A DNA stretch of 64,000 bases from Platanthera guangdongensis (taxonomy: Eukaryota; Streptophyta; Magnoliopsida; Asparagales; Orchidaceae), in the NCBI GenBank assembly GCA_039583875.1, contig CM077162.1:57315675-57379674 (forward strand). Direction: 5' to 3'. The translations under genes and the position numbers were made by a program. Within the stretch, counting starts at the first letter, position 1. The number at the start of each line of letters is the position of its first letter. This document shows, piece after piece, positions 1,176-53,059 of the stretch. The notes beneath the pieces were generated by a model. It did not search any database. It worked only from the letters and a program-made list of their open reading frames with translations, and was not told where the DNA came from.

Positions 1176-1671
1176 TATCCAAGCTTTTGAAAGCTTAAAA
1201 ATTGACCAAGACTAGGCAAACATTCTGATTTTCCTTGGTGTCTAGAATCTTTCTGATCTCTGAACTGCGCTCGACGATTTCCACTAAGATCGTCGAACGG
1301 AGATCGACGATTTCCAAAAATCGTCGAACTGAGTTCAGCGCCTCTCAGATAGTATGAACTATCTCTTACGGTCAACGATCGTCGAACGGCGCTCGACGAT
1401 CTTGTTCTCTGCACGATCGTCGAACGGAGCTCGACGCTCTCCAATATCGTCAAACGGAGATCGACGATGTTGAAAACCTTTCAGATTCCTTTAGAAGCCT
1501 CGATCGTCAAACTGAGTTCAACGATCTTTCCAATTCTGCGTCGAACCCTAATATAAAACTCATTTTTCGCCGTCGTTCTCTCTTGCGCTTTCGATTTCTC
1601 TGCAAGGATTTTCTTTCCCTCCAAACAGTTCTACGCTTGGTCATTTTGTTTGTTGAATTTTTGCAGGTACA
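1176..1671 (+). promoter_or_regulatory. Copia-1 internal promoter-like spacer between pol and ORF3
   Basis: The 496-bp spacer holds about six copies of an imperfect inverted repeat of the form ATCGTCGA-(6 to 8 bp)-TCGACGAT, starting near 1290, 1321, 1379, 1417, 1447 and 1504. It then has a TATA box (TATAAAA, 1552-1558), a pyrimidine-rich leader, a 3' splice-site-like TTTTTGCAG ending at 1666, and the ORF3 ATG at 1672. The same word fills the LTR of this family at 4995-5290. Seen: repeats, TATA box, spacing of about 115 bp from TATA to ATG. Inferred: a separate promoter for ORF3. Here the word spacing is about 30, 38 and 58 bp, not the 21-22 bp of the LTR. Confidence 0.6.
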
Positions 1672-4823: not shown

Positions 4824-5660
4824 TGTTGGAACACCCTATTACTAATTTGGTTCAGGATCACTATGTCTCTAGGAACCTTTACTTGACCTTCTGTATAGCT
4901 TAATAGGTCAATTAGAATTGAGTCTAAGGGTTAGAAGTCTAGGATTGGAAGCTGCCCTGGAGACCAAGTTTTTGTGTCTGGAGACTAAGTCTGATCGTCG
5001 AGCTCAGCACGACGATTCGTCGAACTCCGATCGACGATCGTCTAGCTCAACTCCGACGGATCGTCGAGCTCCACTCGACGATCGCTGAGCTCAACTTCAT
5101 AATATCGTCGAACTCAGTTCGACGATCGGTGATCTCAGGTCGACGATTTTGACTCTGCTTTGGATCTTTATCTCTGAGCTCAGTTCGACGATCTTTGAGC
5201 TTAGATCGACGATTATTTTTGCTGCTTGAGTTTTCCAGTTCGCTGAGCTCAGCTCAACAATAGCAGAGCTCAGTTCGACGATTTCAGATAACTTCCAGAA
5301 TTCAAATTCAAATCAGTCAGGAGTTATTCTGCAATTAATTCAGAGATTTGCTAGCCGTTTTCATTCAATTCTGGACCAAGTTTCAAGGGATTTTTCAAGG
5401 AATAATTCTGTGGACTTTCCTCCAGAAGAGTTTTTGCAATTAAGGATGCAATCAATGCAGACCAACGGCTATCCTTGACAGAGAATGACATTCTATTCTG
5501 GAACAGAGAATAAAAGACAGAATGGTTTTTGAATCAAAGTGAAGAACAAGACAGATACACACAATACAGATTACAGAAAAATAGTCAAAAATCTTCTGTC
5601 AAAAAGAATTCTGAAGAACACTCATCAAAGAGATCAAGCTTTCAAAAATCTTCAGATCTC
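4824..5660 (+). repeat. Copia-1 3' LTR, 5' part only (truncated)
   Basis: It starts TGTTGGAACACCC right after the polypurine tract and matches, inverted, the LTR at 6388-8019 and the LTR at 40627-42122. A word array (ATCGTCGA type) has starts near 4995, 5017, 5038, 5061, 5082, 5105, 5126, 5171, 5192, 5240, 5261 and 5282, which is 21-23 bp apart with two gaps of 45-48 bp. The match stops near 5660, about 837 bp into a ~1.5-1.6 kb LTR, where sequence switches to antisense gag. The U5 end, with its hairpin and primer site, is missing. Confidence 0.85.
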
Positions 5661-6387: not shown

Positions 6388-8019
6388 TGAAAGTGTGAGC
6401 TAGATCTGATATACTCTAGAGGGGGGGGGGGGGGTGGGGGGGGTGGGGTGAATAGAGTATGTTGCTTAAAAACTTTTTACAACAGTTGTTGTAATCTGAG
6501 TGAACAGGGAAACAAATATTAAATCTAATCACAGAACCTATCTAATCACAAACTATAAAAGAAACTAATCACAGATACTAACTAATCATAGATCAATCAC
6601 AGCCAGAAACAAAAATAAAGACAAGCAAGCCAGAAGACACAATGAGCTATAGTGGTTCCCCTAAACTTGCGTACATCCACTCTTCTACCACCCTAGGTAG
6701 GAATCCACTGCATGATGAGTTGATCAGGTATCCTGGGCACCAATGAGCTTTTGATAAGGTGCTCAAAAACCAAACCAGATTTTTTGATCAGGTGTCTTGC
6801 CACCAATGAGCTTTTGATAAGGTGCTCAAAAACCAAACACAAACTTTTGAAGGGAGTTTGAAAAACCCTTTACAGAGATGGGGATGAGAGAGTTATGGAA
6901 GTCTTCTCTTTCTCAGAGCAGCTGAGAAGACTATGTGGATTTTGATGATGTCAAAGCTCCCCCTGAGTTCTTGAGATGTTCAGGAAATAAAGCTTTGCTG
7001 TAGGGTGATAGGCCTTCAGAAAGTTGATCTCCAGCAATTGATGATTTCAGCAATAGCTGAAATGTTAGGTGTCTGGAGTCTTGAATGATGTTGGCCTTGA
7101 ACACTTGAATCACAAGAGATCTAAAGATTTCAGTTGGTTGATCTCCTTGGTTGTGTGTTCTTGTATGAATTCTTTTAGACAGAGAATGTCTACAACTCTT
7201 TCTCTTTTTCTCTTGTGAACAGTTGGTGTTGAGAAAGATGTTGTTCCAGAGAAAAAATTGTTCTTGTTCTTCTTGTTCTGCTTATCTGTGTTGTAAAAGA
7301 TTCAAAAATCTTGTATATTATTCCCTGGTTCTGAATAGAAAAAGAACCTCTGTCAAGAATAGCCGTTGGCCTGTCATTAATTGACTTCCTTAATTGCAAT
7401 TATCTTCTGGGGGAAAGTCCAAAGAAACATTCCTTGATAATCCCTTGAAACTTGGTCCAGAATAAATGAAAACGACTACAAAATCTTCTGAATTAATTGC
7501 TGACAATAACTCCTTAACTGTTCTGAATTTGAATCTTGAAAGTCATTGAACTCTTCAGAAAAACGTCGAACTGAGCTCTACTAACATCGAACTGAGCTCA
7601 GCGATTTGGACTTGTACAGCAACAGAGATCGTCAATCTGAGCTCAACTATCATCGAACTGAGCTCAGAGATAGAGAATCAATACTGGAGTCAAGATCGTC
7701 GAACTGAGCTCGAAGATCGTCGAATGGAGTTCGACGATTTGTTGAAGTTGAGCTCAGCGATCGTCGAATGGAGTTAGACGATCCGTCGAAGTGAGCTCAA
7801 CGATCATCGATTGGAGTTCGACGATTCGTCGTACTGAGCTCGATGAAATGACTTAGTCTCCAAACAGAAAAATCTTGGTCTTGAGGGCAGCTTCCAAACC
7901 TAGCTACCAACCCTTAGACTCAATCCTAATTGACCTTTAGATCTATACAATGAGGTCAAAAACAGGTTTCCTAGAGACATAGTGATCCTGACCCAAATTA
8001 GTAATAGGGTGTTCCAACA
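6388..8019 (-). repeat. Copia-2 5' LTR, complete (1632 bp)
   Basis: It runs TGTTGGAACACCC...CACTTTCA on the minus strand. The word array (ATCGTCGA and relatives) lies at about 7564-7830 with starts near 7629, 7650, 7696, 7717, 7739, 7761, 7783, 7804 and 7826: 21-22 bp steps and one 46-bp step. A conserved AGTGG...CCACT hairpin is near 6650-6680. A G-run hairpin, ATACTCTA (6411-6418) paired with TAGAGTAT (6453-6460), lies close to the LTR 3' end. On its right the LTR ends cleanly inside the 3' LTR of Copia-3 (junction 8019/8020), so Copia-2 landed there. The candidate duplicated site GAATA at 8020-8024 has no visible partner. Confidence 0.9.
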
Positions 8020-11218: not shown

Positions 11219-11615
11219 GGAATCACCTGCAAGAGAGATATAAAAACGGCGATCAAGTGCAAAGGAACAGAAAGCGCGGGATGGAGGTCGAAGAAAACCT
11301 AAATATAGGGTTTTCAAGAATATTAATCGACAGACCGCGTTCCACAAAAATAGAAATAATTCTTCGAACTGAGTTCGACAAAATAATTTTGAATGAAATA
11401 ATTCGTCGATCCGATCCAGAAGAATTGAAGACAGTTCGTCGAACTCCGTTCGATGAATATCTTCTGAAGCAAGATCGTCGAAATCCGTTCGACGAAAATT
11501 ATTTCAGTCACAGAGAGTTCGTCGATCTCCGTCCGACGAATATCTCTCAAACTTTCCCCGGTTCGTCGAACTCCGTTCGACGAACTTTGGAAAATTCGTC
11601 GAGTGCAGAGAGAAA
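11219..11615 (-). promoter_or_regulatory. Copia-3 internal promoter-like spacer between pol and ORF3
   Basis: Read on the minus strand: word copies of the form TTCGTCGAACTCCGTTCGACGAA (11361-11603, plus-strand starts near 11361, 11403, 11436, 11475, 11519, 11563, 11596), then a TATATTT box (11301-11307) in CCCTATATTTAG, a pyrimidine-rich leader, CTTGCAG|GTG near 11227, and the ORF3 ATG. Word spacing is 33-44 bp. The layout equals that of Copia-1, -4 and -7. Promoter activity is inferred. Confidence 0.55.
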
Positions 11616-27175: not shown

Positions 27176-29060
27176 TGAAAGTGTTTAGTTGTCTACCTAA
27201 ATCACCTAGAGGGGGGGGGGGATGAATAGGTGAGTTGTGCGTCTTTTTGCGGAATAAAAATTCAGAGATCTATGCACACAATAATATACCAAGCATTCAC
27301 AGACGAAAAAAGATTTATAGTGGTTCCCCAACCTTGGGTACATCCACTTTCCCTCACCGATCTAGCAAAGCACTAGACTCAGCTACTCCACTATCTCGGA
27401 TTGAAAACCAATCCTACGCCTCGGAACAAAGTTCCTACAATCTCGATCCACAACACGGATCTATACTCGGAATATAAAAACTTCCTACAACTCAGAGACA
27501 AAAGCTCCTACACTCGGAGAGAAATCTTCTACAAGAATAAATTGAGAATAATGAAATACAAACAGTAATTTTCAGATTTGGAAAATCTCAGGCAGGATCT
27601 TCTTCATTGATCTTTGCGACTTTATCAGAGAAATTTGAAGAAGAAACTCGACAAGATCTGGATCTGAAATTCCATTGACTCACACGATCCGATAGATGAT
27701 GAGAAGTTGAGAGACGATCTCGATCTGTAAGTCAACCTTGATCTGAATCTTCTTGAATCGAAAAACCTAGCCAAATTTGCACGATGAAGGTCGTCGGCTT
27801 CCGTTTTTAGAAAGAGAGAATTGGATTCAGATTTATTAGAATAAACTTGACAGCACTGGTTAGGGTTAGTCGATTTGACAAGACCTTATATAAGATCTCC
27901 CTAACAGTCATAATTAACATTAATGATGTACACGTGGACCGATCACGTCACGGTATTTGAAATTCCCATCGATTATGGACTTAGCGAATTTCTGGAAAAT
28001 TTGACTGATTTACTCGAGTAAAAGATTACCTGCTCGGGTACTAATCTGATTACTTGAGAGAATTTGGATAGACTACTCGAGTAGAAGACTTTGAGAAAAT
28101 TCAGAATAGAATGAGTAATCACTCGAGTAGAAAAGGACTTACTCGTGCGCTAGAAAATATAACACGAGACGTGGAGATGGACTACTTGAGTACTAGAAAT
28201 ATTACTCGAGAGGTAGAAGAATTCCTCGAGTCAAAGATTTAGCGGATTTTCTGAGAGAAGAAATCTGGTTACTCGAGTACTAGAACTGAACTACTCGAGA
28301 AGAGATTAACTGCTCGAGTATATGAATATTACTACTCGAGTATAGGACTTAGAAAAATTCTTAGGGATAAAAATCTGATCACTCGAGTATTAGAGCTGGA
28401 CTACTCGAGTAGTAGATAGACTACTCGAGTACATGAACTTGACTACTTGAGTGGGGTAAAATAACACGAGAATCTGTCTTCTGTAACTCGTGACAAAAGA
28501 CTTATCTACTCGAGTGGTTAACATGACTACTCGAGTAAATGACTTAGAAAATTTTCTGAGAGGAAAATCTATTAACTCGAGAATAAGAGAGGGTCTACTC
28601 GAGTAATGGACTTGGCTACTCGAGAGCTATATTCAGACTACTCGAGAGTCATTTCCCTTACTAGAGTACATCTGGATTTACTCGAGTATTAACTAAGTAT
28701 TCAACTCGAGTATATAACCTACTACTTGAGTAAAAGGCTTAGCAAAATTTTCTTCAACAAAATTTTCTCTTCTTCAATAAAATCAGCAACACTTATTTCT
28801 CCAATCAATCCTAGTGCTTGAAACATGATGCGTATCCTAATAGAGAGGCTACACATGAGTTAATACCATAGATCACACAGTGAGGGATTACATTGTATGG
28901 TCCTGCATTTGGTGAACCATTGTAGACTGATATTGGTCTACACTTGGCAATATAGTCCTGCAAACACATAACTCAAACAAGACATCAAATACAACTTAAT
29001 TCATCTTAGTTCAAGGGTGACTTCATCAAATCTGGGTTATTGTGGATATAATACCCAACA
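27176..29060 (-). repeat. Copia-4 3' LTR, complete (1885 bp)
   Basis: On the minus strand it starts TGTTGGGTATTAT after the polypurine tract (29061-29075) and ends CACTTTCA at 27176. Within U3 about 30 CTCGAG-type words lie at 28013-28730 with a pitch near 21.6 bp. A TATA box (TATATAAG, 27887-27894) follows directly downstream. Further on are the AGTGG...CCACT hairpin (27319-27348) and the U5 G-run hairpin CACCTA/TAGGTG (27203-27232). Left flank is TACCT; the other LTR is lost, so no duplication can be checked. Confidence 0.9.
28013..28730 (-). promoter_or_regulatory. Periodic CTCGAG word array in Copia-4 U3
   Basis: Plus-strand starts of CTCGAG or one-mismatch forms: 28013, 033, 053, 076, 122, 142, 163, 185, 205, 225, 272, 294, 313, 335, 382, 404, 424, 446, 465, 487, 509, 530, 576, 598, 619, 641, 661, 681, 705, 725. 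Steps are 19-24 bp except four of 46-47 bp. Each long step holds a related AT-rich piece (GACTTAGAAAATTTTCTGAG type). The array lies just upstream of the TATA box. Enhancer or silencer-target function is inferred. Confidence 0.85.
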
Positions 29061-29272: not shown

Positions 29273-31677
29273 TTAAACTTGAGGTTGTTGAGGTTGTTGC
29301 TGTTTATCTTTCTTCCCTTGCTGTGTTCTCTGGTAACTGTAAGGCTTGGGATAGTACTTTGGAGGCTTTGGAGGAGCAACAAGGTTGTTTCTTCCATATT
29401 CTTTGTCATATAGCCTTCTCTTTGTCATAGGCTTCTCATACAAGTCCCATTCTTGGGAGCTGTAATAATCATTCCTATTTTCATTGAAGTCCATGACAAG
29501 CTTGAAAGTATCCAGAATGAGTGACTTTGAAGTTGGGGACCAAATTTCTGCAACTCTGGAGCTTTCCTCTTTTCTGTATCTGGAACTGGAATTGATCTGC
29601 TTGTAGAGGCTCCATCACCATATCTTCTCTTCTTTAGAATGTGAATCTCAGGAGGAGCATGAAGGAATATGTTAGCTGGGTCAACCTCCCAAACCTGAGT
29701 ATAAGAATCTGGAGGAGGACCTTCACAACCTTCAGGTCTAGGAGAGAAGGTAGGCTGAGGAGCCGGAGCAATAGGGGCCAAGGGATTCAGATGGTGAGGA
29801 ATGATATTTGGAGCAGTTGGGAACTCAGGAAGAATCTAATTGTGCATCCAGACTACTGTATCATGAGTGTGGAACTTCTCTCTTTGAATCCGGCCTAGCA
29901 CATCATCATGAATCTCTTTTAGCTTCTCTTCCCAGAGAGTCTGCTTGATTGCATCTGATTTCTCTAGATATTCTTTTACTAAACTCTCCACCTTTCTGAC
30001 TTCTATAGTCAGAGTATTTATAGCATCTTCTTTAAATTTCCCTACCTCTTCAAAGACTTTGAAGGTGTGAGCTTGAGCATTCTTTTCCAACTGAATTTGA
30101 TTATTGGCAAAAGTAACAGCTTGATCCATGATATGACCAACACTAGTGATTGTGTGGTCTAGAGCTTTGTCACCTATCTGGAATTGCTGTCTTAATTGAT
30201 TTGTATTATTCTGAATCTCAGCAAAACCTCTGCTCATCTCTTTCTCAAGAGTAGTGACTTTCTCAGTGACAGCTTTAAATGAATCATCCAAATATTTTCT
30301 TTGTTCTTGGAGAAGTTGAACAAACATACCCATAATATCATTGGAAGCAGGAGGAGCAGCAGTAGATGTAGAAGGAACTAGAGGAGGAGGAGCAAACCAT
30401 GGGGCAATTTCTTCAATAACCACAGAGCTCTCAGCTCTGGTAGTGTGAATAAGGGCATCCCCTTCTTCAGTGATGAAGGTGGGGATAGGGAAATCTAAGC
30501 TCTTCAGGGGAGCTTCAGCTGGTTCTGGGGAGGGCTCTTTATCATCAGGGATCAAAATGGTCTCAACCTGCTCTTTATCAGCAGTAAGAGAGTGGTGAAC
30601 ATGGGATTGAGGAGATGGAACAGGAGATTTGGGAGGAGTATGAGTGGGAGATGGAACTGTGGTTTGCTGCTTGGATGCTTCAGTGGTTTGTTCTTTTTGA
30701 AGTGGGGGAAGAGGTTCTTAAGAAGTGAGTTCTTCAATCATCTCATTTATGGCTGCATCAGTGGAGAGAAGGGTTTCTTGGATCTGAGCATCTGTTGGAA
30801 CTTCTTCATGAGTGGTTGGAGGAGGAGAAATATCAACTGGAGGGGTAGGAATTCTGTCTTCTGGAACAGAAGGAGTAGACTCCCCCTCAATAGCTGCACC
30901 AGATGTGCTGGCAACAAGAGGTGGAGACGGACATGGGGTCCTGTCCTCTATAGCAGGAAGTTCATGGGCTTTGGCAGACTGAGCAGGGTTCAGTAGTTTC
31001 AAATCCCATCCCTGAATAGAGGATATTGAGACTTTCTTCATGTGATGTAGTATTGTACCTTTGGAGAAGTTGAACACCTCAGGATTAATCTCATGTAACA
31101 GAAGAGAGATAATCCTTGCATAACTTGGAGCCTTGATGCTTTCCTTGATCTTGTATAGAATCATCATACCAAATTGATATCTCTTCCTGCAAACAATAGC
31201 TTGCATGACGTCAAAAATGCTGAGTGAAATATCTCTGATTGAACTTGTGTTGCATAGAAGGATTTTCCCAATAATGTCGACCAAGAGTTTGCCTTCAGGA
31301 TTGAGTTCTGAACTACGAATGGTGAGAGCATCTCGAGAGACACCACAAAACATACATGTTATGTCAGACTCCTCAGGACCTAGGTCATCTTCTTCATCAA
31401 CAACTGACAGTCGAAGAAGAGTTGAAACAGAGGTTTTGGAGAGCTTGATTTTGATGCCCTTGACTGTGGACTTAAGAATTTTGCCACTTCCCTTAACCTT
31501 GATGTTCTTGAAGAATTCTTCGACCTCTGGAAACAAAATCTTGCAAGGTTGCTGTAGAACAAAAGTCAGGCCGGCGGTGTCGAAAAGGATGAGTAGATTC
31601 TTGAAATCATCGGATAAATCGGCTATCCCTGCGGCGACAAGCTCTAAACCTATTCCAATCTTAGACGGCGGCACCAT
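29273..31677 (-). pseudogene. Copia-4 ORF3, broken
   Basis: The ATG at 31677 (MVPPSKIGIGLELVAAG) starts a frame that is open to TAA at 30718-30720, continues to a stop at 29836-29838, goes on to about 29510 and shifts frame for the last ~75 residues (DFNENRNDYYSSQEWDLY...PKYYPKPYSYQR). The N-terminal domain has FVLQQPCKILFPEVEEFF, LVDIIGKILLCNTSSIRDIS and YARIISLLL, aligning with ORF3 of Copia-7. The middle is Pro-rich; residues ~390-560 are helical and likely coiled-coil (KAVTEKVTTLEKEMSRG, VTFANNQIQLEKNAQ). The tail is Lys/Gln-rich. Sequence is far from Copia-1 ORF3 but the architecture is alike. Function unknown. Confidence 0.7.
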
Positions 31678-32180
31678 GAACCAGAGATTTGAGAGCAAGC
31701 TTCTGCGGGGATGAAAATGGCGCGGGCTCTGCAACTGTCGGCGGAAGATGAAGCGTCTTTCGGCTTACTCGAGTGAATGGATTTTGGGTTGTGTAGAAAA
31801 TGGAAATCCGGACTTTTCTATTTATATAACCCGAATTTATCGATTATTAAGAGAGAAATTAAGCTTATATACCCGGGAAAGGGCGGTATAAGCCTCGGGT
31901 TGCGAATAACGAAATTTGAATTGAAGTTGAGAAAGAGTCTTCTTGGTACTCGAGTGAATCAGAAGTACTAAAGTGAATTGATGATAGTACTCGAGTGAAG
32001 AAATGGAAGTACTCGAGTCATCTGTCTTTATACGTCTCGATTGACAACTTAGTACTCGAGTAGGTTGCGGAGTACTCGAGTAGATTTACTCGAGCAACTG
32101 AAGAGGTACTCGAGTAGTTACTCGCTCGAGTGACTTACTTTTTACTTGTGTGGTCTTGGTCTTACTTGAGTCATAAAGAC
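31678..32180 (-). promoter_or_regulatory. Copia-4 internal promoter-like spacer between pol and ORF3
   Basis: On the minus strand, from pol towards ORF3: CTCGAG words at (plus-strand starts) 32125, 32109, 32089, 32075, 32055, 32036, 32012, 31990, 31949 and 31768, mostly 19-24 bp apart; TATATAAG near 31868; a canonical TATATAAATAG (31818-31828); a leader with TTGCAG; and the ORF3 ATG at 31677, about 145 bp below the TATA box. The word is the one used in this element's own LTR. Promoter function is inferred. Confidence 0.65.
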
Positions 32181-37091: not shown

Positions 37092-37591
37092 NNNNNNNNN
37101 NNNNNNNNNNNNNNNNNNNNNNNNNNNNNNNNNNNNNNNNNNNNNNNNNNNNNNNNNNNNNNNNNNNNNNNNNNNNNNNNNNNNNNNNNNNNNNNNNNNN
37201 NNNNNNNNNNNNNNNNNNNNNNNNNNNNNNNNNNNNNNNNNNNNNNNNNNNNNNNNNNNNNNNNNNNNNNNNNNNNNNNNNNNNNNNNNNNNNNNNNNNN
37301 NNNNNNNNNNNNNNNNNNNNNNNNNNNNNNNNNNNNNNNNNNNNNNNNNNNNNNNNNNNNNNNNNNNNNNNNNNNNNNNNNNNNNNNNNNNNNNNNNNNN
37401 NNNNNNNNNNNNNNNNNNNNNNNNNNNNNNNNNNNNNNNNNNNNNNNNNNNNNNNNNNNNNNNNNNNNNNNNNNNNNNNNNNNNNNNNNNNNNNNNNNNN
37501 NNNNNNNNNNNNNNNNNNNNNNNNNNNNNNNNNNNNNNNNNNNNNNNNNNNNNNNNNNNNNNNNNNNNNNNNNNNNNNNNNNNNNNNNNNN
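37092..37591. other. Assembly gap, 500 N
   Basis: Exactly 500 N, the conventional size for a gap of unknown length. Copia-4 is cut on its left side; the right side does not continue Copia-4. Open frames across it are meaningless. Confidence 0.99.
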
Positions 37592-38419: not shown

Positions 38420-40494
38420 TTCATTTGTTTTGACCAGTTTACCTTGGGCCTGGGTTGATAACCTTTAAATTCTGAAATGAAAGACATCCCAGGTTGACTC
38501 TTATATCCTTCAGGATGATATCTCCTTGGAGGTATAATCCATTCAGTATAAGGGTTAAAGATTTGGGATGAAGGACCCTTAGGATTCAATTTTGATTTGC
38601 CTTTGAAAAATTTTCCAGAGCTCTGACCTCTGTTCGACGATCTTGGAGCTGCGTTCGACGATCTTGGGTCAGATCGTCGAGCTCCGTTCGACGGTCGACT
38701 ATGGCTGAGGTCAGGTATTTGAGATCGTCGACCTGCGTTCGATGACTTTGGCTGAGATCGTCGATCTGCGTTCGACGATTTTGCCTGAGATCGTCGAGCT
38801 GCGTTTGGCGATCGTCGATCTTCATTCGGTGATCATCGATCTCCGTTCGACGATTTCTGCTGGGACTTTGTTTTCTGAGGCAGATCAGAATTTTTCCTAG
38901 CAACCTCTACAACTCCCTTTCCTTTGTCAGAAATGAATTTGATTGGAGTTGTTAGGACTATAGGTTGGCTGGATGAAGCACCCAAGCCCAGTGTACTGTT
39001 AAATCTAGAGTTCACTGTGCTTGTGATGTCCATCAGCTTGATGCTTCTCCCATTAAGGAATTTTTCAAGCTTCTTGGCCTCAGAGAGCTCACTTTTCAGT
39101 GTAGCTATCTGTTCCCTACAGCACTCCAACTCCTGAGAGAGTTTGAGATTTTCTGACTTTAAAGTATTGTGTTCAGATAATTGATTTCTGAGAGAGATAA
39201 TCTCTTTCTCAGACTTTAGCAGGTCTAAACACATTGCTTTAAATTCAGATTTAAAATCCTCTGAACTAAAATCAAAAGAACCAATTACCTGATCTTCTTC
39301 AGGTTGAGTCTCTGAATCTGACTCTGACTCCTCTTCTTCTGAATTATGCTGTGAGGCATTGATTGCCATCATGCAGAACTCCTTTTCTTCTGCATCATCC
39401 TCATCATCACTGGAGCTGGATGAGGCTTCTGACTCTTCTTCAGTCTCACTCCAGGATTCAGCAACAAGCCCTTTTCTTGTATGTTTGTTGTTGCTTGAAG
39501 AAGGTTTGCTATTGCCATTCCTTTTGGAGTCTTTCTCCTTTCTTCTTTCTTTCCTGTCCCTTCTATCCTTGTTCTTGTTCTCTAGACAGTCAGGAACTAT
39601 GTGCCCTGGTTTTCTGCAACCAAAGCAAATAATGGCTTTATTATTACTATTGGACTTGTCATACCTTGGATTATCCTGCTCCTTGTATGATCTTCTTCTG
39701 AAGTCCTTTCTGGCCATTTTGCAAAATCTTTTGGCCAGCAGACTGAGTAGTTCATCATTGCCTGTGGCTTTATCTTCAGGCAGATGTTCAGTTGCCTTGA
39801 AGGCTATGGTCTTCTCTTTTCTTGTGGCTGGTGAGGCAGCCTTCTGTTCTTCCTCTCTATTTTTGATGAGTAGCTCATAAGATTTGAGCTTACCCAATAG
39901 AGCTTCAGTAGTGATCTCATTCAGACTTCTGGCATCCTTAATTGGCCAGATTCTTGAATCCCAAGTGCTGGGGAAGCACATTATGATGTTGTCCTTAAGT
40001 TCAGTTAGAGAGATCTCTTTGTCCAATGTTCTGAGTTCACTGACAATTAGACTTAGCCTGTTGTACATGTCTCCCACTGACTCAGTTTCTCCCTTCTTGA
40101 AATTCTCATATTGAGAGATGAGATGGGATCTTCTATCATTTCTCTCATCAGCTGAGCCTGAGACTATTTCTGAGAGTTTGTCCCAAATTTCCTTTGCTGA
40201 ATTGCATTCAGCCACCTTTTGAAATATGTCATCAGACATTGTCAGGGCCAAGATGTTCATAGCCTTGGCATCAGCTACCTTCCATCTCTTGATATCAGCA
40301 TCTGTTCCTGATGGAGGTGGAACAACATTTGCACTTGTGTTCTCTGGGGGTCTTGGACATACTGTCAAAATAGAGTTAAAGATATCTTCGTCAATAGAAT
40401 TCATGTAAAGTCTGATCCTTGCTTTCCAAAGTGCAAACTTGGATAGATTGCACACTGGAGGTCTGGTGCTAGCATAATCTTTGTTTTGGGCCAT
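38401..40494 (-). pseudogene. Copia-5 gag with repetitive gag-protease linker, one stop
   Basis: ATG 40494 (MAQNKDYASTRPP) opens a frame to a TGA at 38833-38835 and on to 38401. Order: UBN2-type domain (LWKARIRLYMNSIDEDIF, MSDDIFQKVAECNSAKEIW), zinc knuckle CFGCRKPGHIVPDC near residue 290, Lys/Ser-rich and acidic stretches, coiled coil (LKSEKEIISLRNQLSEHN, LKSELSEAKKLEKFLNGRS), then a linker made of the LTR word. The TGA fits CGA to TGA at a CpG. Beyond it the linker reads SSNxDRRS-type repeats, then PYTEWIIPPRRYHPEGY before the protease. Without that stop and the shift at 38415, gag-pro would be continuous. Confidence 0.88.
38630..38860 (-). repeat. LTR-word repeats inside Copia-5 gag-protease linker
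   Basis: Plus-strand starts of TCGACGA-type words: 38634, 38655, 38688, 38739, 38772, 38805, 38826, 38847. Steps are 21, 33, 51, 33, 33, 21, 21, all multiples of three, so each copy keeps frame and encodes SSNxDRR. The same word in this element's LTR has steps of 21-23. Confidence 0.85.
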
Positions 40495-40626: not shown

Positions 40627-42122
40627 TGAAAGTGCAGCTAGATCTGATATACTCTAGAGGGGGGTGAATAGAGTATATGGTGCTTTGAAACTTTTTACAA
40701 CAACTGTTGTAATAAGAGTGAGCAGGGAAGCAATAATAAATCTAATCACAGCACTAAGTTAAACAAAAGCTAAGCACAGAAAAATCAAGGCCAGAAACAA
40801 ACATAAACACAAGCAAAACCAGAAGACACAAGGAAATATAGTGGTTCCCCTAAACTTGGGTACATCCACTCTTCTACCACCCTAGGTAGGAATCCACTGC
40901 AGGATGAGTTGATCCGGTGTCCTGGGCACCAATGAGCTTTTGATAAGGTGCTCAAAAACCAAAGCAGATTTTTTGATCAGGTGTCTTGCCACCAATGAGC
41001 TTTTGACAAGGTGCTCAAAAACCAAGCTCAAACTTTTGAAGGGAGTTTGAGAAACCCTTTACAGAGAGGGGGTGAGAGAGTGATGGAAGTCTTCTCTTTC
41101 TCAAACAACTGAGAAGACTATGTGGATTGTTGATGTCAAAGCTCCCCCTGAATCCTTGAGATCTTCAGGAAGAAAAGCTTTGCTGAGGGGATAGGCCTTC
41201 AAAGATTGAACTCCAGCAATAGATGATTTCAGCAATAGCTAAATGTTGAATGTCTGGAGTCTGGAAATATGTTGGCCTTGAACACTTTGAAACTAAAAAG
41301 ATCTGAAGATTTGAGAAAGCTTGATCTCCTTGGATGTGTGTTCTTGAGAAATCTTTGAGACAGAATTTTTGAATGTGTCTCTGTAATCTGTGTTCTATGA
41401 GTGATTCAAAAATTCTTCTCTTTTATTCTCTGATACAGAATAGAATAATATCTCTGTCAAGAATAGCCGTTGGCCTGCATTAATTGCATCCTTAATTGCA
41501 CAATCTCTTCTGGAGGAAAGTCCACACAAATATTCCTTGAAAAATCCCTTGAAACTTGGTCCAGAAATGAATGAAAATGGCTAGGAAATCTCTGAATTAA
41601 TTGTAGAATAACTCCTTAACTGATTTGAATTTGAACTTAGAAACATCCTGGAAGTTATCTGAAATCGTCGGACTGAGCTCTGCTATCGTCGAGCTGAGCT
41701 CAGCGATCTGAAAATATACAGCAGCAAAATATCGTCGATCTGAGCTCAAAGATCGTCGAACTGAGCTCAGAGATAAAGATCCAAAGCAGAGTCAAAATCG
41801 TCGACCTGAGCTCACCGATCATCGAATGGAGTTCGGCGATATAATGAAGTTGAGCTCAGCGATCGTCGAATGGAGTTCGACGATCTGTCAAAGTTGAGCT
41901 AGACGATCGTCGACCGGAGTTCGACGAATCGTCGTGCTGAGCTCGACGATATGACTTAGTCTCCAAACACAAAATCCTGGTCTTCAGGGCAGCTTCCAAA
42001 CCTAGACTTCTAACCCTTAGACTCAATTCTAATTGACCTATTGAGCTATACAGGAGGTCAAACAAAGGTTCCTAGAGACATAGTGATCCTGACCCAAATT
42101 AGTAATAGGGTGTTCCAACATA
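40627..42122 (-). repeat. Copia-5 5' LTR, complete (1496 bp)
   Basis: TGTTGGAACACCC (42122) to CACTTTCA (40627) on the minus strand; same family as Copia-1/-2. Word starts near 41665, 41686, 41707, 41732, 41753, 41798, 41819, 41840, 41863, 41884, 41907, 41929: 21-25 bp steps with one of 45. AGTGG...CCACT hairpin at 40840-40870; U5 hairpin ATACTCTA/TAGAGTAT at 40649-40676 around a short G-run. Its right end abuts Copia-6 pol within the DLQRAD motif, so Copia-5 inserted into Copia-6. Flank TATCA (42123-42127) is one half of a possible duplication. Confidence 0.92.
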
Positions 42123-45100
42123 TCAGCCCTTTGTAAATCAGTGTAGATATAGACAAGCTTGATTTTATTTTTGTCTACACACTCTCTAATGAAATGATGT
42201 CTTATGTCAATATGTTTTGTCCTACTATGGTGAACTGGATTCTGGGCTATGGCTATAGCACTTGTATTATCACATAGTAGGGTTGAATTATTTAAGTTGA
42301 ACCCATAATCTAGAAGTTGATTTTGTATCCAAAGCATCTGTGAACAACAGCTGCCTGCTGCAATATATTCTGTTTCAGCAGTTGAGGTTGACACTGATGT
42401 TTGCTTTTTACAAAACCAAGATACTAATCTCATACTCAGGAACTGGCAAGTCCCTGAAGTACTTTTTCTATCTACCCTGCATCCGACAAAATCAGCATCA
42501 GAGTATCCAGTTAACTCAAATTCTGATTCAGCAGGATACCATAGGCCTAGATTAGGACAACTCTTTATATAGCTCAAAATCCTTTTTAGTAAAATTATGT
42601 GAGATTCTTTAGGGTTCACCTGAAACCTAACACAAAGACATGTGGCAAACATAATATTTGGCATACTTGCTGTGAGGTATAATATGGACCCAACAATGCC
42701 CTATAAAGTTTCTGATCCACAGGTTTCCATGGTACATCAGAGTCCACAACAACATTGGTAGCCATGTGTGTTTTCTTTGCTGAGACATCAACCATCCCAA
42801 ACTTCTTTAGAAGTTCTTTAACATATTTTGCTTGAGAGATGAAGATGCCATCAGGGAGCTGCTTCACTTGGAGACCAAGGAAGTAGGAAAGCTCACCCAT
42901 GCTACTCATTTCAAATTTGGAATGCATAAGGTCAAGAAACCTCTTGCATAATTTGGAATCTGTAGAGCCAAATATAATATCATCCACATAGATTTGTACT
43001 AATAATATTTGGTCCTTATGATGTCATGTGAAAAGTGTTTTATCTACAGTTCCTCTTATAAATTTATGCTCTAATAGAAAACTAGCTAAGGTCTTATACC
43101 AAGCTCTTGGAGCTTGCTTTAGACCATTAAGAGCCTTATGCAATTTAAAAATATGAGAGGGGTAAGTTGGAGAAATAAAACCTGGAGGTTGTTCTACATA
43201 AACCACTTCTTTTAGCACTCCATTTAGAAAGCACTCTTCACATCCATTTAGAAGACCTTGAATCTCTTGTATGCTGCATAGGCAAGGAATATTCTTATGG
43301 CTTCAAACCTTGCAACAGGTGCAAAGGTTTGATCATAGTCAATTCCTTCTTCTTGCCTATATCCTTGAGCAACAAGCCTAGCCTTGTTTCTCATAATGAT
43401 TCCTTGGGCATCCAGCTTGTTTCTGAATACCCATTTGGTTCCAATAACTGGGTAGTTTTGGGGTCTTGGAACCAAATCCCAAATTCTACATCTCTCAAAT
43501 TAATTTAGTTTCCTCCTGTATTGCAAGGATCCAGTGGGGATCCTGCTCAGCATCATGGATGGATAGAGGTTCAACCTGAGAGAGAAAACAGGCATGCATC
43601 AAATCTTGGGTGAGTTGATGCCTTGTCTGTACACCTGCTGATATGTCTCCAATCACTTGAGATCTGGGGTGATCCCTAAGTATGACAAAATCAGTAGGTG
43701 GAGTTGGTTGTGCAATAGAATTTGCAATTAATTCCTCCTATGGAATTATATTTGCTGTTGGTTGTGATTCATTTTCTTCAGCTTCTTCTTCTTCACTTTC
43801 TTCAATGGCTTGTGGAGAGGGATGAGTTGGAACCTCTTGGGTGAGGTTTTGTCCATCCAAGGTCTCACACAAGTGGGGTGCCTGCAAGTTGCTATTAGTA
43901 GAAACTTCTTTCTCCTTGCAATACATGTTAGTCTCATCAAATGAAACATGAATGGACTCTTCAATTTTTAATGTTGATTTATTAAAAACCCTATAGGCCT
44001 TGCTTACTTGGGAATATCCTAGAAAAACTCCCTCTTCAGCCTTAGCCTCAAACTTTCTAATGTATTTTTTGTTGTTGTTATGAATGTAACATAAGCATCC
44101 AAATACTTTGAAGTTGTTGATTTTAGGTTTCTTCCCTTTGAGCAATTCATAGAGAGTCATGTTCTTTAGTTTGTAAATTAGGCTCCTGTTCAGGACATAA
44201 TTTGCTGTGCTTACAGCCTATGCCCAAAAGGTTAGGGGCATGTAAGCATCTGCAAGCAATATACCTACAGCTTCAATGAGTGTCCTATTTTTCCTTTCAG
44301 CTACCCCATTTTGTTGGGGAGTTCTAGGAGCTAAGAAGCAATGCCTGATACCTTCTTTCTCACAGAACTCATGCATAAGAAGAGACTCAAACTCTGTGCC
44401 ATGATCACTTCAGATCAATACAACATGAGTAGAGAACTCAATCTATATGGTCCTGAGAAAATCTGTAAGAACCTTGAGGGTATCTGACTTAGATCTCAGA
44501 AAGAATACTCAACTGAACCTGGAGAAGTCATCCACTATAACCAAAGTGTAGGATTTCCCTCCTAGGCTTTGTACAGTAATGGGTCCAAAGAGATCCAAAT
44601 GTAGCAAGTACAAAATCCTATGTGAATCATTCTTATTAATAGATTTAAAACTAGTTTTAGTTTGCTTGTCTAATTGACAAGCCCTGCAGAGACCTTCTTT
44701 CTTGTAGGGACCAGAAGGTAGGCCTCTAACAAGGTTGTATTTAGATAACCTAGTAATGTTTTTCAGATTTACATGACCTAGTCTTTTTGTCATAAGTCAT
44801 TCTGATTACTAGTTAAATTAAGTAAACAGATATCAGTTTTGGCAGAAAGAAAATTTACTAAGTATATGTTGCCTTGTCTATTTCCAGTTAAAACTATTTG
44901 GTTATTTTTATCAATAATAGAACAAGTGGATGGGTTAAAGTATACCTGATAACCATCATCACATAACTGACTTATGGAGATGAGGTTATGCTTGAGTCCA
45001 CTTACATATGTCACCTTCTTGAATGTGATAGCTCATATTCTTACTTTTCCAAATCCTTCTGACTGACCACATTTGGAGTCACCAAAGATAACCTTTGGCC

Positions 45101-45215
45101 CAGCTTGGACTTGTAGTTGGATAAGATATCCTTGCTGCCAGTCATATGTTTGGAGCAGCCACTGTCCAGGTACCAAGTTTGATTTACCCATGGACAGCTC
45201 TTCACCTGTAATAAA
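42123..45215 (-). pseudogene. Copia-6 pol: protease to RNase H, interrupted by Copia-5, frameshifted
   Basis: Minus strand. Protease near 45180-45110 (TWYLDSGCSKHMTGSKD by reading across frames), GAG-pre-integrase RLGHVNLKNITRLSKYN, integrase 43738-44793 (YTLVIVDDFSRFS, GKKPKINNFKVFGC), RT 42616-43475 ([52 protein letters not shown]), RNase H 42123-42664 ([44 protein letters not shown]). At least five frame changes. The RT strand reads MDDIIFGS; the residue before DD is altered from Tyr. The final residues of the open frame (LEHPITNLGQD...) come from the Copia-5 LTR. Sequence is very close to Copia-3 pol. Confidence 0.9.
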
Positions 45216-47330
45216 AAACAGTTAATGGTTTTTGACCTAGGTTACCTTGGGTCCTTTGTATTGCTGATAAGATAAGCTGGAAATAACAGAGAATTCAGGT
45301 TGGGACTTTTATCCTAAGGGGTGATATCTCCTAGGTGGTATTATCTAGTGAGCTAGTGGATTAAATGGTTTTTTTAGAAATATTTAAGTTGCTGTTGAAA
45401 TTATAGTTTTGATTAAGTCTTCCTGGGTTCGATGAATTTCTATAAGTCGTCGACCAAAGTTCGATGAATTGGGTTGAAATCGTCGATCTATGCCCAGAGA
45501 ATGAACATGTTCATTCTCTGTGCCCCATGTTCGTCGACCTCTGCTCGACGAACCATACATAGTTCGTCGATCGCAGTTAGACGAGTAAATGTAACTATAG
45601 TTTGCGTTCAGAGTTCGTCGATCTGGGTTCGACGAACTGGCCCCATTTCGTCGATCTGAGTTCGACGAAAATTGCTGAACCTTGTTTTTACTGGGTGTTT
45701 TCTGGTTTTTGGTTTTCTGTCCTACTATCTTAGGGATCTTTTCTACTGTTTGTTTATCATTTACTGTTTCTTTCCCTTTAGCAGATACAAATTTTATTGG
45801 GGTTGATAAAATGTTCTTGCTGAGAATGGGGGGCAAACCTGATGGAGCACCCAAGCCTTGCTTTCCATCAAGTCTGGCATTAATAGTACTTGTGATATCT
45901 ATCAGCTTGAGGCTTCTCCCATTGAGAGTTTCCTCAAGTTGTTTGGCCTCACAAAGCTCAGTTTTTAGTGAATTTATTTTTTCATTTGCTAAGGTTAATT
46001 CATCTTTTAACCTAATGTTTTCAGATTGAACATCCTCTAAGTTTCCTAATTTTTTCCTAAGAATTTTAATTTCTTTTTCAGAATTAATCAAATCTATGCA
46101 CATTAACTTGAAATCAGATTTAAATGTTTCAGAGCTGTAGTCAAAGGAGGACAATACCTGATCTGCCTCTAATTCAGACACTCCTTCATCTTCAGACTCT
46201 TCTTCTTTTGAATGACTTCTGGAGGCATCAATTGCCATGAGGCAAACCTCCTTTGCTCTTTCTTCTTCCTCATCTCCACTGGAGCTTGAATATGTTGACT
46301 CATCTTCTCTCTCACTCCAGGTCTCAGCCACAAAGCCCTTTTCCTTCTTCTTGTGCTTGCTGGAAGAGGGTTTGCTGGTGTTCTGTCTTCTGGTTTCCTT
46401 CTCTCTTCTCTTCTCTTTCTTCTGGTTCTCTGAAGACTCAGAGAGGAAGTGCCCAGGCTTCCTGCATCCATAGCACACAATTGCTTTGGTTGGTGTCTTG
46501 TCATATTTTGGCTTGTCATCATTTCTTGATGACTTTCTCCTGAAATCCTTTCTGTCCATCTTGTAGAATCTTTTAGCAAAGATACTCATGAGCTTTTCAT
46601 TTAATGTTGCAGCCTCTGTCTCTTCAGTGGCTTTGAAGGCAATACTTTGTTCTCTTCTAGCTCTGCTGGAGGTGTTCTTTGTTCAGCTGCCTCCCTGGTC
46701 TTTATCAGTTGTTCATATGACTTCAGTTTGCCTAATAGAGATTCAGTTGAAATCTCATTCAGGTATCTGGCCTCCTTGATGGGCCAGATTCTTGTATCCC
46801 ATGAGCTTAGGAAGCACATAAGGATCTTGTCATTCACTTCAGTAAGAGTGATGTTCTTATTCAAGGTTTTTAGCTCATTGATAATTGAGCTTAACCTATT
46901 ATACATATCAGAAACTGTCTCAGCTTCTTCCTTCTTAAAGTTCTCATATAGGGATATGAGATTTGATCTCCTATCCTTTCTCTCATCTGCTAATCCATCC
47001 ACCATTTGGTTTAGGGAATCCCAAATGGCTTTTGCTGAGGTGCACTCAGCAACCTTCTGGAAAATATCATCTGACATAGTTTGCGCCAGGATATTCATAG
47101 CTTTGGCATCTGCAACTTTTGCCTTTCTTTGAGTTTCAGTCCACTCAGGTGGTGGAACTGCTGTTGAACTTGTAGGTGTTGCAGAGCTGGATGCTTGTGG
47201 GGGACCTGTCAAGATTGAATTGTAGATGTCTTCATCAATGGAATAGCCTAATTATTGTCTTCCAAATGGCAAACCTATTAAGGTTGCAAACTGGAGGTCT
47301 GGTGCTTGCATAATCCTTGTACTGTGCCAT
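45216..47330 (-). pseudogene. Copia-6 gag with repetitive linker, frameshifted
   Basis: ATG 47330 (MAQYKDYAS-like start) leads through a UBN2 region at 46601-47212 (MSDDIFQKVAECTSAKAIW, NRLSSIINELKTLNKN), a frameshift near 46600, then 45384-46589: zinc knuckle CYGCRKPGHFLSE (the last Cys is Ser), acidic/Ser stretch, coiled coil (NSEKEIKILRKKLGNLED, NEKINSLKTELCEAKQL), and a linker with SSNxDRR repeats. A frameshift also lies near 47240. Ser in place of the final Cys weakens the knuckle. Confidence 0.85.
45425..45670 (-). repeat. LTR-word repeats inside Copia-6 gag-protease linker
   Basis: TCGTCGA starts on the plus strand at 45447, 45480, 45531, 45564, 45615 and 45648: steps alternate 33, 51, 33, 51, 33, a higher-order unit of 84 bp (28 codons, four times 21). 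The words encode SSNxDRR on the minus strand. A perfect 26-bp palindrome (45495-45520) lies within. Confidence 0.85.
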
Positions 47331-47427
47331 GGCTGTGTTTATAATTTAAATGAAAATAAAATAATGTGTAGATCTAACAAATGATCTTTTGGTTCAAGAT
47401 TTAACTTGTACAACCAAAGGATCCTCC

Positions 47428-47439
47428 TCTGATACCAAT
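47428..47439 (-). other. Copia-6 primer-binding site
   Basis: Minus-strand ATTGGTATCAGA follows the LTR end TTTCA, as in Copia-2 and Copia-5. Confidence 0.85.
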
Positions 47440-49561
47440 TGAAAGTGAGAGTTAGATCTGAAATACTCTAGAGGGGGGGGGGTGAATAGAGTATTCTTAA
47501 TAAATTCTTAACAGCTATTACAACTTTTGATATAAATTAAAAGTGCAGAAATAAATATAGCTAGCACACAATAAACCTAAACCACAAGCACAACAAGAAC
47601 AAAAGAAAAAGGGGAAACCAGACGACACAAGAATTTTATAGTGGTTCCCCAACCTGGGTATATCCACTCTTCTACCACCCTTGGTAGGAATCCACTCAGA
47701 TTTTTGATCCGGTGCCTGACACCAATGAGCTTTTGATCAGGTGCTCAAAAACTAACCCAAGTCTTTTGATCAGGAGACTTGCAACCAAGGAATCACTTTT
47801 GAAGGGAGATGACAACCCTTTATACAGTGGGGTGGGGGTGAGATGATTTTGTCTTCTCTTTCTCAATATACAACTCAGAAGACTATGGATTTGATTATAG
47901 CTTATGCTCCCCCTGAGAAAACTGGATCTAAGCTTCAGGGTGATAGGTCTTCAAACTGAATCCTTGACCAGCAATAATCTTCAGGAACTTCTTTGATAGA
48001 TGGAACTGATGTTGTCCTTTTGAAGTGTCTTGGAGTGCTTGAAGAAAGAAGACTCTAGATATAGGTATTGTTGTTCTTCTTCTTCAGGTATTGATGAGCT
48101 TCTGGTCAAGGGCTTTTCTATATCAGAGAATGTTTCTTGTTAACAGAGCAGATTGTCAAGATTGAATGTTTCTCTGTAATCTCTGTATGCCTCTCAGAGT
48201 ACTGTGCTCTGTGAAAAAAACTTTTTTAATAATCCTTGATTGTTCTATATGTCTGTGTGTATCCGTTATTCTCTTCTATTCTTTTATATTTTCTGTCAAA
48301 TCTGTCTTTCAAAAATTTGAATTCTTCTGCAATTAATGCTGACAGCCTTGAGAATAAACGACATTGATTTATTTCCCCAACTGTCCCATGAAAAACGGAA
48401 AGCAATAATCCCGGAGAAGACTATAATTAATTCTCCTTCTAACGGTTAGATTCAGAGAATGTTAGAGCATTAATTACTCAGGAATTATCGCATTAGAGTG
48501 GGGACAGAAGGCCGGAAATAACTAAGTCTGGAATCGTAGAATAGTTGACAGAAATCGTCGAGCTGAGTCTGTAGTTCGTCGACCTGATGACTTCTGTTCG
48601 TCGAGCTGAGTTGCAGAATCGTCGATCTGGAAACTGAACTGCTGTCTCTTTTGAAGTTTGCCTATTCTGTCTGAAGTTCGTCGAGCTGGTAAATGTGTTC
48701 GTCGATTGGAGTTCAGCAACTATTCTAGAGTTATCAAAGATTCTATCTGTCGACTAATATCCTGTGTGTCGACACAAGTCTTCTGTGTGGTGTCGACACA
48801 ACCTTTCCACAATGTCGACTGATGATCTGGGTGTCGACACAAGTTCTTCTAGTGTCGACTTAGTTGGTGTCGATATATATTCTGAGTGCCGACACAAGTC
48901 TTCTAAGTTGTTGAAGTAGATAATTCCAGAATTCATCGGGCAGAGAACTGAGTTCGTCGACCTGAGACTAGAGAACATAGTCTTGATAGAATGCTGTAGT
49001 AGTCCAAAGATTCGTCGACCAAAGAATAGTGTTCGTCGAGCTAAGTCTGGAGAACCTTCAATTCGTCGAGCTGAAATTGATTCTGGACTTAGAGAAAAAT
49101 GATAAACCTCTGTCAATAGAGTTGAAGTGGAAGTCCAGAAATCGTCGAGCAAAGAATGAAGTTCGTCGACTTGAGAACTAGGTTCGTCGACCTGAGTCTA
49201 GAGAACAGCCTAGACTTAGAATTCTGAAGGTGGAGTCCTAGGATCGTCGATCTGTGACTGAAGTTCGTCGAGCTCAACTCAGAGAATATTTCCCTAAGAT
49301 AGTCAAGCTGAGAACGACTATCGTCGACCTGAGTTCGACGAACGTCGAACTCATTTTACTTAGTTTCTTGAGAAATCTTTGAATCTATGTAAAAACTCTA
49401 AGTCTCGAGTCTCTGACAGTCTGATGATGGCTTGTTCATGTGATGTTATTACTGAGGACTTGGCCTAGACTCTAGGACACAACTATGACCCTGGCTATAC
49501 ATGTTGGGTCACATCATCCTAGCTTAGTGAACCTAACCCAAATCAAACTAGGGATCCAACA
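47440..49561 (-). repeat. Copia-6 5' LTR, complete (2122 bp), two different word arrays
   Basis: TGTTGGATCCC (49561) to CTCACTTTCA (47440) on the minus strand. Its start matches the Copia-3 LTR fragment. The U3 holds TCGTCGA words (starts near 48555, 576, 598, 619, 678, 699, then 48954, 49012, 033, 063, 142, 163, 184, 244, 265, 321, 342) and, between them, TGTCGACACA words (48748, 767, 791, 813, 832, 853, 868, 887). Both keep steps near 21 bp. AGTGG...CCACT hairpin at 47640-47668; U5 hairpin at 47463-47494. It borders Copia-7 on the right. Confidence 0.92.
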
Positions 49562-52449: not shown

Positions 52450-53059
52450 TCTTGTTAAAAGATCTTGAGTTAGAAGGGTGTCGACTATGGATTTCTAGGT
52501 CTCGACACACAACGATTAGTCTCTTAAGATTACTGGCGAGTGAAGTCGACAAAACCTAACATCTACTATTTATAGCATCAGTCTTTTGAAGGTGAAATAG
52601 CGTGCTGCATTTAGTGATTTTCTCAAAATTAAGTAATTTCAAGAGTCGACAAAGAAAACCTAAGCTGTCAAGATGTGTCGACATGTGTCAACACACAGTT
52701 TATTTTTCTCGACACACAGACCTAAAGGTCTCGACACAAACTTATAATATCTCGACACACATCCTTTTATTAGTGTCGACACACATCCGCTAATCAGTGT
52801 CGAAACACAGTCATTTGTCTCGACATACCTTTTCTACTAGTGTCGACACACGCTGTTGTGTCTCGACACACTTGAACTAATATGTCGACACACACCCTGG
52901 TGTCTCGACACAATTCTGTGACTTAGACAAATTTTGTGTTGTGACTTATATGTCCTAACTTATTAAAGTAAAAAATTTTAAACTATTTGCATTTCTAATT
53001 AGTCATACTTTTAAATGTAAATATTTATTCAATATTCAGCATACCTAGTTCAAATTTAA
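52450..53059 (-). promoter_or_regulatory. Copia-7 internal promoter-like spacer between pol and ORF3
   Basis: Words TGTCGACACA/TCTCGACACA lie at plus-strand starts 52666-52903 (for example 52707, 729, 750, 774, 798, 819, 841, 861, 883, 903) at 20-24 bp steps. On the minus strand they precede a canonical TATA box, TATAAATAG (52566-52574), about 120 bp before the ORF3 ATG. Further words (52479, 52500, 52520, 52543) lie between TATA and ATG. It is the cleanest case of array-TATA-ATG. Promoter function is inferred. Confidence 0.65.

Follow-up and report, generated by a model that had tools for sequence, protein, structure and literature searches.

Several long terminal repeats (LTRs) in a stretch of the genome of the orchid Platanthera guangdongensis (GenBank assembly GCA_039583875.1, contig CM077162.1, positions 57,315,675 to 57,379,674 of the forward strand) carry short palindromic words that recur at a regular step, and this raises the question of what is being kept in such arrays: the word, the step, or both. 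The whole stretch, of 64,000 nucleotides, is called here the window, and its arrays are assigned, from sequence features, to Sirevirus (SIRE/Maximus) Ty1/copia retrotransposons. A previous sequence-only reading, which dealt with the part bounded by two minus-strand LTRs (40627-42120 and 47440-49561), each adjoining a Sirevirus primer-binding junction, had claimed that a pitch of 21-22 bp is shared by the families although the word changes, and had proposed either that geometry is under selection or that the arrays arise by a common mechanism with units of about 21 bp. As described below, the words are, judged from rate comparisons in one lineage (B/B2), under purifying selection in the active lineage, and the pitch is kept mainly by inheritance, with weak selection at most.

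The rhythm that had been described is indeed present. In the LTR at 40627-42120 the steps between TCGA centres are 46, 21, 45, 21, 44, 11, 33, 11 and 22 bp; those of the LTR at 47440-49561 open with 21, 22, 21, 59, 21 and 48 bp, continue in a TGTCGACA block with 19, 24, 22, 19, 21 and 15 bp, and are followed by further TCGTCGA words with several steps of 21 bp. In the ACTCGAGTA array at 28012-28711, the words between 28014 and 28706 show steps of 19-24 bp, with gaps of 40, 45-47, 63 and 83-85 bp. The arrays go beyond chance, with 6-34 soft-matched words per sequence as compared to 0-1.8 after shuffling. LTRs were then sampled by their primer-binding site (PBS) junction and not by their word, from the first 90 of 100 listed junctions, all located in contig C1. 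The top word class was TCGTCGA/TCGACGA in 69 of these LTRs, ACTCGAGT in 10, TGTCGACA in 7, TCTCGAGA in 2 and TAGTCGA in 1, with none called in the last one. TCGA is common to the five classes called in this sample. Hereafter, B designates the class ACTCGAGT, B2 the class TTCTCGAGAA and C the class GTGTCGACAC; further classes are TTCGTCGA and ATCGTCGA. A candidate non-TCGA Sirevirus word (ACACGGCCGTGT, in L096) was dropped; the L096 sequence has, near the junction, an end similar to that of the window's gypsy-type LTRs, and it looks like an LTR of that type lying within a Sirevirus LTR. L025 resembles a simple repeat.

The evidence for selection on the words comes from the B/B2 lineage. Ten of its 12 LTRs were used in the between-family comparisons (L011, a near copy of L010, and L040, which has a short array, were left out); only alignment columns from stretches more than 50% identical were counted, and spacers were called up to a step of 26 bp. 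The two LTRs of an insertion were compared in five inferred pairs from one B family, and there the rates of difference are similar for words (30/1550 sites) and spacers (27/1573). Between families, using the 45 overlapping pairs of the ten LTRs, the differing sites are 717/6976 in words, 3355/7667 in spacers and 7715/34714 in flanks. When this conservation of the words was compared with the LTR-pair ratio over 945 disjoint pairings, the Fisher p value was at most 1.1e-4 (median 3.1e-8), with odds ratios of 3.3-7.8. Since the words differ as much as the spacers within LTR pairs but far less between families, these results point to purifying selection on the words.

Regarding the pitch, steps of 14-28 bp were averaged in 39 chosen class-by-sequence sets that came from 36 of 96 sequences, two of the sets being internal arrays. 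The mean step is 21.2 bp in B, 21.0 in B2, 20.0 in C, 18.8 in the C block of Copia-6-type LTRs, 20.8 in the TTCGTCGA class and 21.1 in the ATCGTCGA class. The C block of the Copia-6-type LTRs consists mostly of 16 and 20 bp steps, mixed within the block, and L081 has an array with a 35-bp step. Genome-wide, for steps of at least 17 bp, 969,612 exact GTGTCGACAC pairs were found at 17-24 bp (1 with the reversed-pattern control) versus 29,376 at 25-32 bp (control 0), i.e., a 33-fold excess; at 17-24 bp there are also 125,254 pairs of TACTCGAGTA and 15,740 of TTCTCGAGAA (control 0 in both cases). A satellite-like GTGTCGACAC array at C1:18192409-18192561, with a 14-bp step, is an exception to this pitch. 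A single common pitch of 21-22 bp does not fit class means of 18.8-21.2 bp and the 14-bp and 35-bp arrays; the steps rather fall in a range around two helical turns, within which each class has its own value.

Inheritance of the pitch is suggested by the spacers. Adjacent spacers are slightly more alike than shuffled ones in B (identity of 0.454 versus 0.359), B2 (0.407 versus 0.354) and C (0.408 versus 0.338); likewise, when one repeated C spacer was counted once, the similarity within an array was weak yet above that of shuffles (z of 18.7 for a B LTR and 12.7 for a C LTR). No similarity was seen when the spacers of a B LTR array were compared with those of a C LTR array (z 0.1), nor between LTR and internal arrays in a C element (z 0.7). 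In L101, two fresh single-unit duplications were detected in neighbouring units of 22 and 21 bp, with exact repeats of word and spacer, and the extra 43 bp are absent from its partner L100 and from eight other copies; these two single-unit events rule out a gain of the 43 bp as one two-unit block. The residual spacer similarity and the duplications in L101 make a shared mechanism with units of about 21 bp the better fit of the two readings proposed initially. When the decay of equal 11-bp spacers to an identity of 0.44-0.46 was simulated, the standard deviation (SD) of the step was 0.87, 1.65 and 1.96 bp at 0.03, 0.06 and 0.093 indels per substitution, respectively; the B class, with its spacer identity of 0.454, shows a similar scatter (SD 1.49).

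The alternative that survives best is that geometry itself is selected, i.e., that a bound protein requires a distance of about two helical turns between words, or their placement on the same face of the helix, and indels that break the pitch are removed; we consider it rather unlikely, and the data that speak for it are also those that weigh against a mostly inherited pitch. The spacers have fewer indels per substitution than the flanks (0.059 and 0.093 in the pooled pairs), as expected if spacing were selected, and the ratio is below 1 in 945/945 disjoint pairings (median 0.64, 5-95% range 0.50-0.79). Five hand-picked disjoint pairs had given no such shortage (0.073 versus 0.080, p 0.74), but they turned out to be unrepresentative of the 945 pairings. 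In the simulation, the indel ratio of the flanks gives an SD of 1.9-2.0 versus the 1.5 observed, which leaves room for a weak constraint. The steps of B and B2 are partly compensated, with lag-1 values of -0.21 (4% of shuffles as low) and -0.52 (0.5%), respectively. In addition, all the tests comparing words and spacers come from one lineage, and the five LTR pairs were inferred from a spacing of approx. 10.7 kb and have only 5 indels among them, against 177 substitutions. The closeness of the six class means, the 33-fold excess of C pairs, and the similar mean steps of the LTR and internal arrays in one B element (21.5 and 21.2 bp) despite weakly similar spacers (z 7.4), also favour selected geometry. 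On the other hand, the shortage of spacer indels reaches p<0.05 in only 340/945 pairings (median p 0.08), and it may reflect a real weak constraint or else the 26-bp step limit, gaps hidden in diverged spacers, or constrained flanks; because of these three possible biases the size of the effect is unsure. Furthermore, the class means differ, steps of 16 and 20 bp are mixed, gaps of 46-48 bp do not correspond to an integral number of turns, and C (+0.27) and A6 (+0.06) show no compensation. Helical phasing as a general rule was not supported by Fourier power and step autocorrelation in 20 chosen sets, and the 10.5 bp power was weak (R of 0.07-0.25 against noise of 0.05-0.10, using pairs up to 120 bp).

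Another part of the initial description was that of double gaps of 45-48 bp, which are seen at these loci but are not a single kind of structure. In 10 B LTRs the motif CTAAGT was found 48 times forward and once reversed (3.9 expected); from its start to the next TCGA the distance is exactly 13 bp in 32 of the 44 cases in which a TCGA follows in the region, and the previous TCGA lies 34-35 bp back in 6/38 cases and 54-57 bp back in 12/38. These distances account for gaps of 47-48 and 67-70 bp in B. In the ACTCGAGT lineage, gaps of 47-48 bp are thus composites that include CTAAGT as a second conserved box, and the 67-70 bp gaps likewise hold it; the explanation of a double gap as a missing word was rejected for the B/B2 gaps that carry this box. 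Elsewhere, the 44-bp gap of L043 (ATCGTCGA class) contains an inverted word and the 43-bp gap of L047 (B) a mutated one. Near-exact 16-mers of the gap box are present in L041, L052, L071, L075 and L084. In the TTCGTCGA LTRs, CTAAGT is also in excess, with 28 forward and 18 reversed copies against 5.4 expected, and its distances differ from those in B, 23 bp being the commonest; in the C LTRs it was found 8 times forward and 12 reversed (3.7 expected), with no clear strand bias.

The same word is used in the LTR and in internal arrays of an element. In E1 (10/11 and 8/8), E4 (8/9 and 9/9) and E5 (12/17 and 7/9), LTR and internal arrays favour the same base (A or T) before TCGTCGA; the LTR fragment of E3 has too few words for this comparison. 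The arrays between pol and the extra open reading frame (eORF) adjoin TATA-like sequences, called by eye, and further arrays lie at gag-pol junctions. In L010 and L011, TACTCGAGTA arrays are found 5.7 kb past each PBS, and in three C elements the clusters were read as LTR-internal-LTR. Judging only from the array positions, L010 and L011 (C1:6279291-6300188) are apparently two Sirevirus elements in tandem with common LTRs (LTR-internal-LTR-internal-LTR).

These features are close to the repeated motifs (RM boxes) of Sireviruses (Bousios et al. 2010, PMC2829016), which in the accessible text of that report are high-copy palindromes located 5' of a TATA box in the LTR and also ahead of the ENV-like gene, with one consensus per element for both places, conserved despite divergent flanks; the use of one word for LTR and internal arrays is therefore already known from that account. 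Here, 13 exact copies of ACTCGAGT, a palindrome (for RM boxes, a cluster of 8 or more in the LTR is required), are found in the Copia-4 array, and the arrays at 1271-1545, 11290-11605, 31767-32130 and 52481-52910 precede an open reading frame (ORF) or an ATG. In contrast, the RM boxes have a CGG-CCG core, except in Tnd-1, whereas the core of the five word classes found here is TCGA; moreover, the same text mentions neither a spacing rule nor arrays at the gag-pol junction. In maize, as summarized in part by PMC5311732 and PMC10760457, the Sirevirus LTR palindromes are likewise clustered in the cis-region of the LTR, evolve rapidly and have a strong predicted structure, but their word is CACCGGACNNNGTCCGGTG. 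The present analysis adds to the known Sirevirus motif the TCGA-core words, the gag-pol arrays, the gap box and a measured pitch.

With moderate confidence, we favour the reading that these are enhancer-type arrays of putative sites for sequence-specific factors, grown by unit duplication and with a largely inherited pitch. Such factors, probably dimeric, would bind DNA at the words in Sirevirus promoters, both in the U3 region of the LTR and ahead of promoters inside the same element. The word around TCGA would be particular to each family and maintained by purifying selection in the active lineage; the arrays would grow by in-register duplication of whole word-plus-spacer units, and the spacers would then lose sequence identity and seldom length, so that the pitch would persist largely by inheritance. 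Weak selection against changes in length, which is supported, not proven, may perhaps be added. We infer that loose limits from the bound protein could lie behind the approx. 19-22 bp of unrelated arrays. A host-made factor for the TCGTCGA word seems more likely, because gypsy-type LTRs in the window carry the same 14-mer. This sequence, TCGACGATCGTCGA, which is the word of the Sirevirus A families, is found at 55409-55451 and 63594-63636, in the two LTRs of a gypsy-type element with Retrotrans_gag, RVP_2, RT_RNaseH and SH3_Tf2-1 domains. Gypsy-type LTRs (13416-13489, 20329-20345 and 63468-63680) also hold ACACGGGCGTGT/ACACGCCCGTGT palindromes, four of which, at 13416-13489, are exactly 20 bp apart.

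A wider proposal would be that of a promoter code that switches vocabulary: the U3 of the LTR, the gag-pol junction and the pol-eORF region would share the word of the family and a register of approx. 20-22 bp, the word would change half-site by half-site through hybrids (such as B2), the sites would change jointly, following one trans-acting factor, and unrelated gypsy-type LTRs would join. We regard it as unlikely.

It could also be that the words are putative targets of a factor encoded by the element, such as the eORF product, with word and protein changing together. VANDAL elements are DNA transposons. In Arabidopsis, their VANC proteins target non-coding tandem motifs that differ between related elements and families and evolve by repeat formation, according to the part of the report available (Hosaka et al. 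2017, PMC5735166); there, a transposon-encoded binder was identified and the VANC21 motif is YAGTATTAY. The presence of the same word at two distant sites of one element, and of different words in different families, would agree with such a factor. A quick gag-side tree of 30 loci and three window elements, with several long branches and unsure placements, also agrees in that five ACTCGAGT/TCTCGAGA elements group together, distant from the rest, B and B2 forming one clade; this tree separates the Copia-6-like elements from those similar to Copia-1/2/5. Nevertheless, we consider a factor of this kind decidedly unlikely, given that TCGACGATCGTCGA is also present in gypsy-type LTRs, and that L019 and L038 join LTR words of the Copia-6 type to a gag of the Copia-1/2/5 clade, a mismatch that suggests an exchange of the LTR cis-region. 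Besides, no known DNA-binding family was found above the cut-off in nine ORF pieces scanned, the best match being that of the eORF at 30718-31734 with PF20167 (Transposase_32; E 4.4e-8, 33.7 bits, under the cut-off of 45).

Very unlikely, in our opinion, is that the palindromes are kept to form hairpins in RNA or single-stranded DNA instead of binding a protein as duplex. RNA from the arrays is predicted to fold far more strongly than shuffled sequence (z -11.0 for 28000-28725, with 20 shuffles; z -5.5 for 41660-41960, with 100), symmetric words predominate in B and C LTRs (22/25 in L010, 26/30 in L018), and in maize the Sirevirus palindromes have been described as hot spots of small RNAs (Bousios 2016, cited in the available parts of PMC10760457 and PMC5311732). 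Good folding is, however, expected of palindromic arrays whatever their role. In the two B2 LTRs, 14 TTC|TAC and 2 TAC|TTC words were found versus 11 TTC|TTC, so unlike halves are commoner than symmetric words, and the half-sites show no departure from independence (Fisher p 0.22); unlike halves are also the majority in the array at 52481-52910. Overall, the half-site evidence is mixed and small. Finally, a pitch produced by recent tandem duplication of identical 21-mers is most improbable: it describes only parts of the data, namely the near-identical 35-mers of L081, L101 and some TTCGTCGA spacers (adjacent identity of 0.588, with 26% of adjacent pairs above 0.8), and as a full account of B, B2 and C it is rejected by their mean adjacent identity of 0.41-0.45 (0.34-0.36 when shuffled), only 0-4% of adjacent pairs exceeding 0.8 in the five classes other than TTCGTCGA.

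The assignment of these elements follows the definition of Sirevirus. The 5' LTR/PBS junction CA/ATTGG/TATCAGAGC is exact in W1, and the junctions of W2 and W3, TATCAGAGG, differ from it at the last base; the exact 18-base junction TTTCAATTGGTATCAGAG has 22,661 matches across the 4.25 Gb genome (0 with the reversed control). Copia-type gag and reverse transcriptase domains were detected (RVT_2 in E3, E 2.3e-75; Retrotran_gag_2 in E4, E 2.3e-22); the copia assignment comes from these domain matches. In the text available, an extra ORF downstream of pol is reported for 74% of SIRE elements (PMC6317226); here, the ORF 1672-2148 follows the pol ORF 138-1175, the ORF 10811-11347 comes after the pol ORF 11616-13100, and the third candidate, at 30718-31734, has a Platanthera zijinensis protein as its sole match (60%). 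In E5 (45384-46589), the gag-side ORF closes with in-frame repeats, e.g., SNxDRR, that are translated from the array at the gag-pol junction. In the array at 52481-52910 the words shift between GTGTCGACAC and TCTCGACAC types. A run of 500 N bases occupies 37092-37591.

Table 1. Word arrays and associated features of the window, in order of position
Feature	Position	Strand	Remarks
ATCGTCGA array, pol to eORF of E1	1271..1545	+	TATA-like sequence, then eORF at 1672
ATCGTCGA array, 3' LTR of E1	4993..5281	+	
ATCGTCGA array in LTR 6388-8018 of E2	7566..7845	-	A before TCGTCGA in 5/5
TTCGTCGA array of E3, pol (11616-13100) to eORF (inner ATG ~11215)	11290..11605	-	T in 7/8
ACTCGAGTA array in LTR of second Sirevirus lineage ('Copia-4')	28012..28711	-	orientation from gap box
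Gap box AGAATTTTTCTAAGTC, exact, one of several in Copia-4 array	28346..28361	-	
eORF 3' of array 31767..32130	30718..31734	-	weak sub-cut-off PF20167 match
ACTCGAGTA array, pol side to eORF	31767..32130	-	TATA-like sequences before its last word (by eye)
ATCGTCGA array, gag-pol junction of E4	38634..38853	-	A in 9/9
Sirevirus 5' LTR of E4	40627..42120	-	PBS junction 40615; ATCGTCGA array 41686-41949
TTCGTCGA array, gag-pol junction of E5, within end of gag-side ORF	45429..45668	-	T in 7/9
Sirevirus 5' LTR of E5 ('Copia-6')	47440..49561	-	PBS junction 47428; word positions in the next two rows
TTCGTCGA arrays in E5 LTR	48555..48705, 48954..49350	-	
TGTCGACACA block in E5 LTR	48748..48873	-	
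TGTCGACACA/TCTCGACACA array upstream of ATG	52481..52910	-	most words before TATA-like sequence, few after

Taken as a testable account of the Sirevirus LTR palindromes, these results would mean that the words are selected, that the spacer sequence is free, and that the rhythm is mostly inherited; they also call for caution, in that a regular spacing of motifs is by itself no evidence of a selected geometry. With about one million GTGTCGACAC pairs at regular spacing, this single genome offers natural variation that may serve to find the factors that drive very abundant plant retrotransposons.

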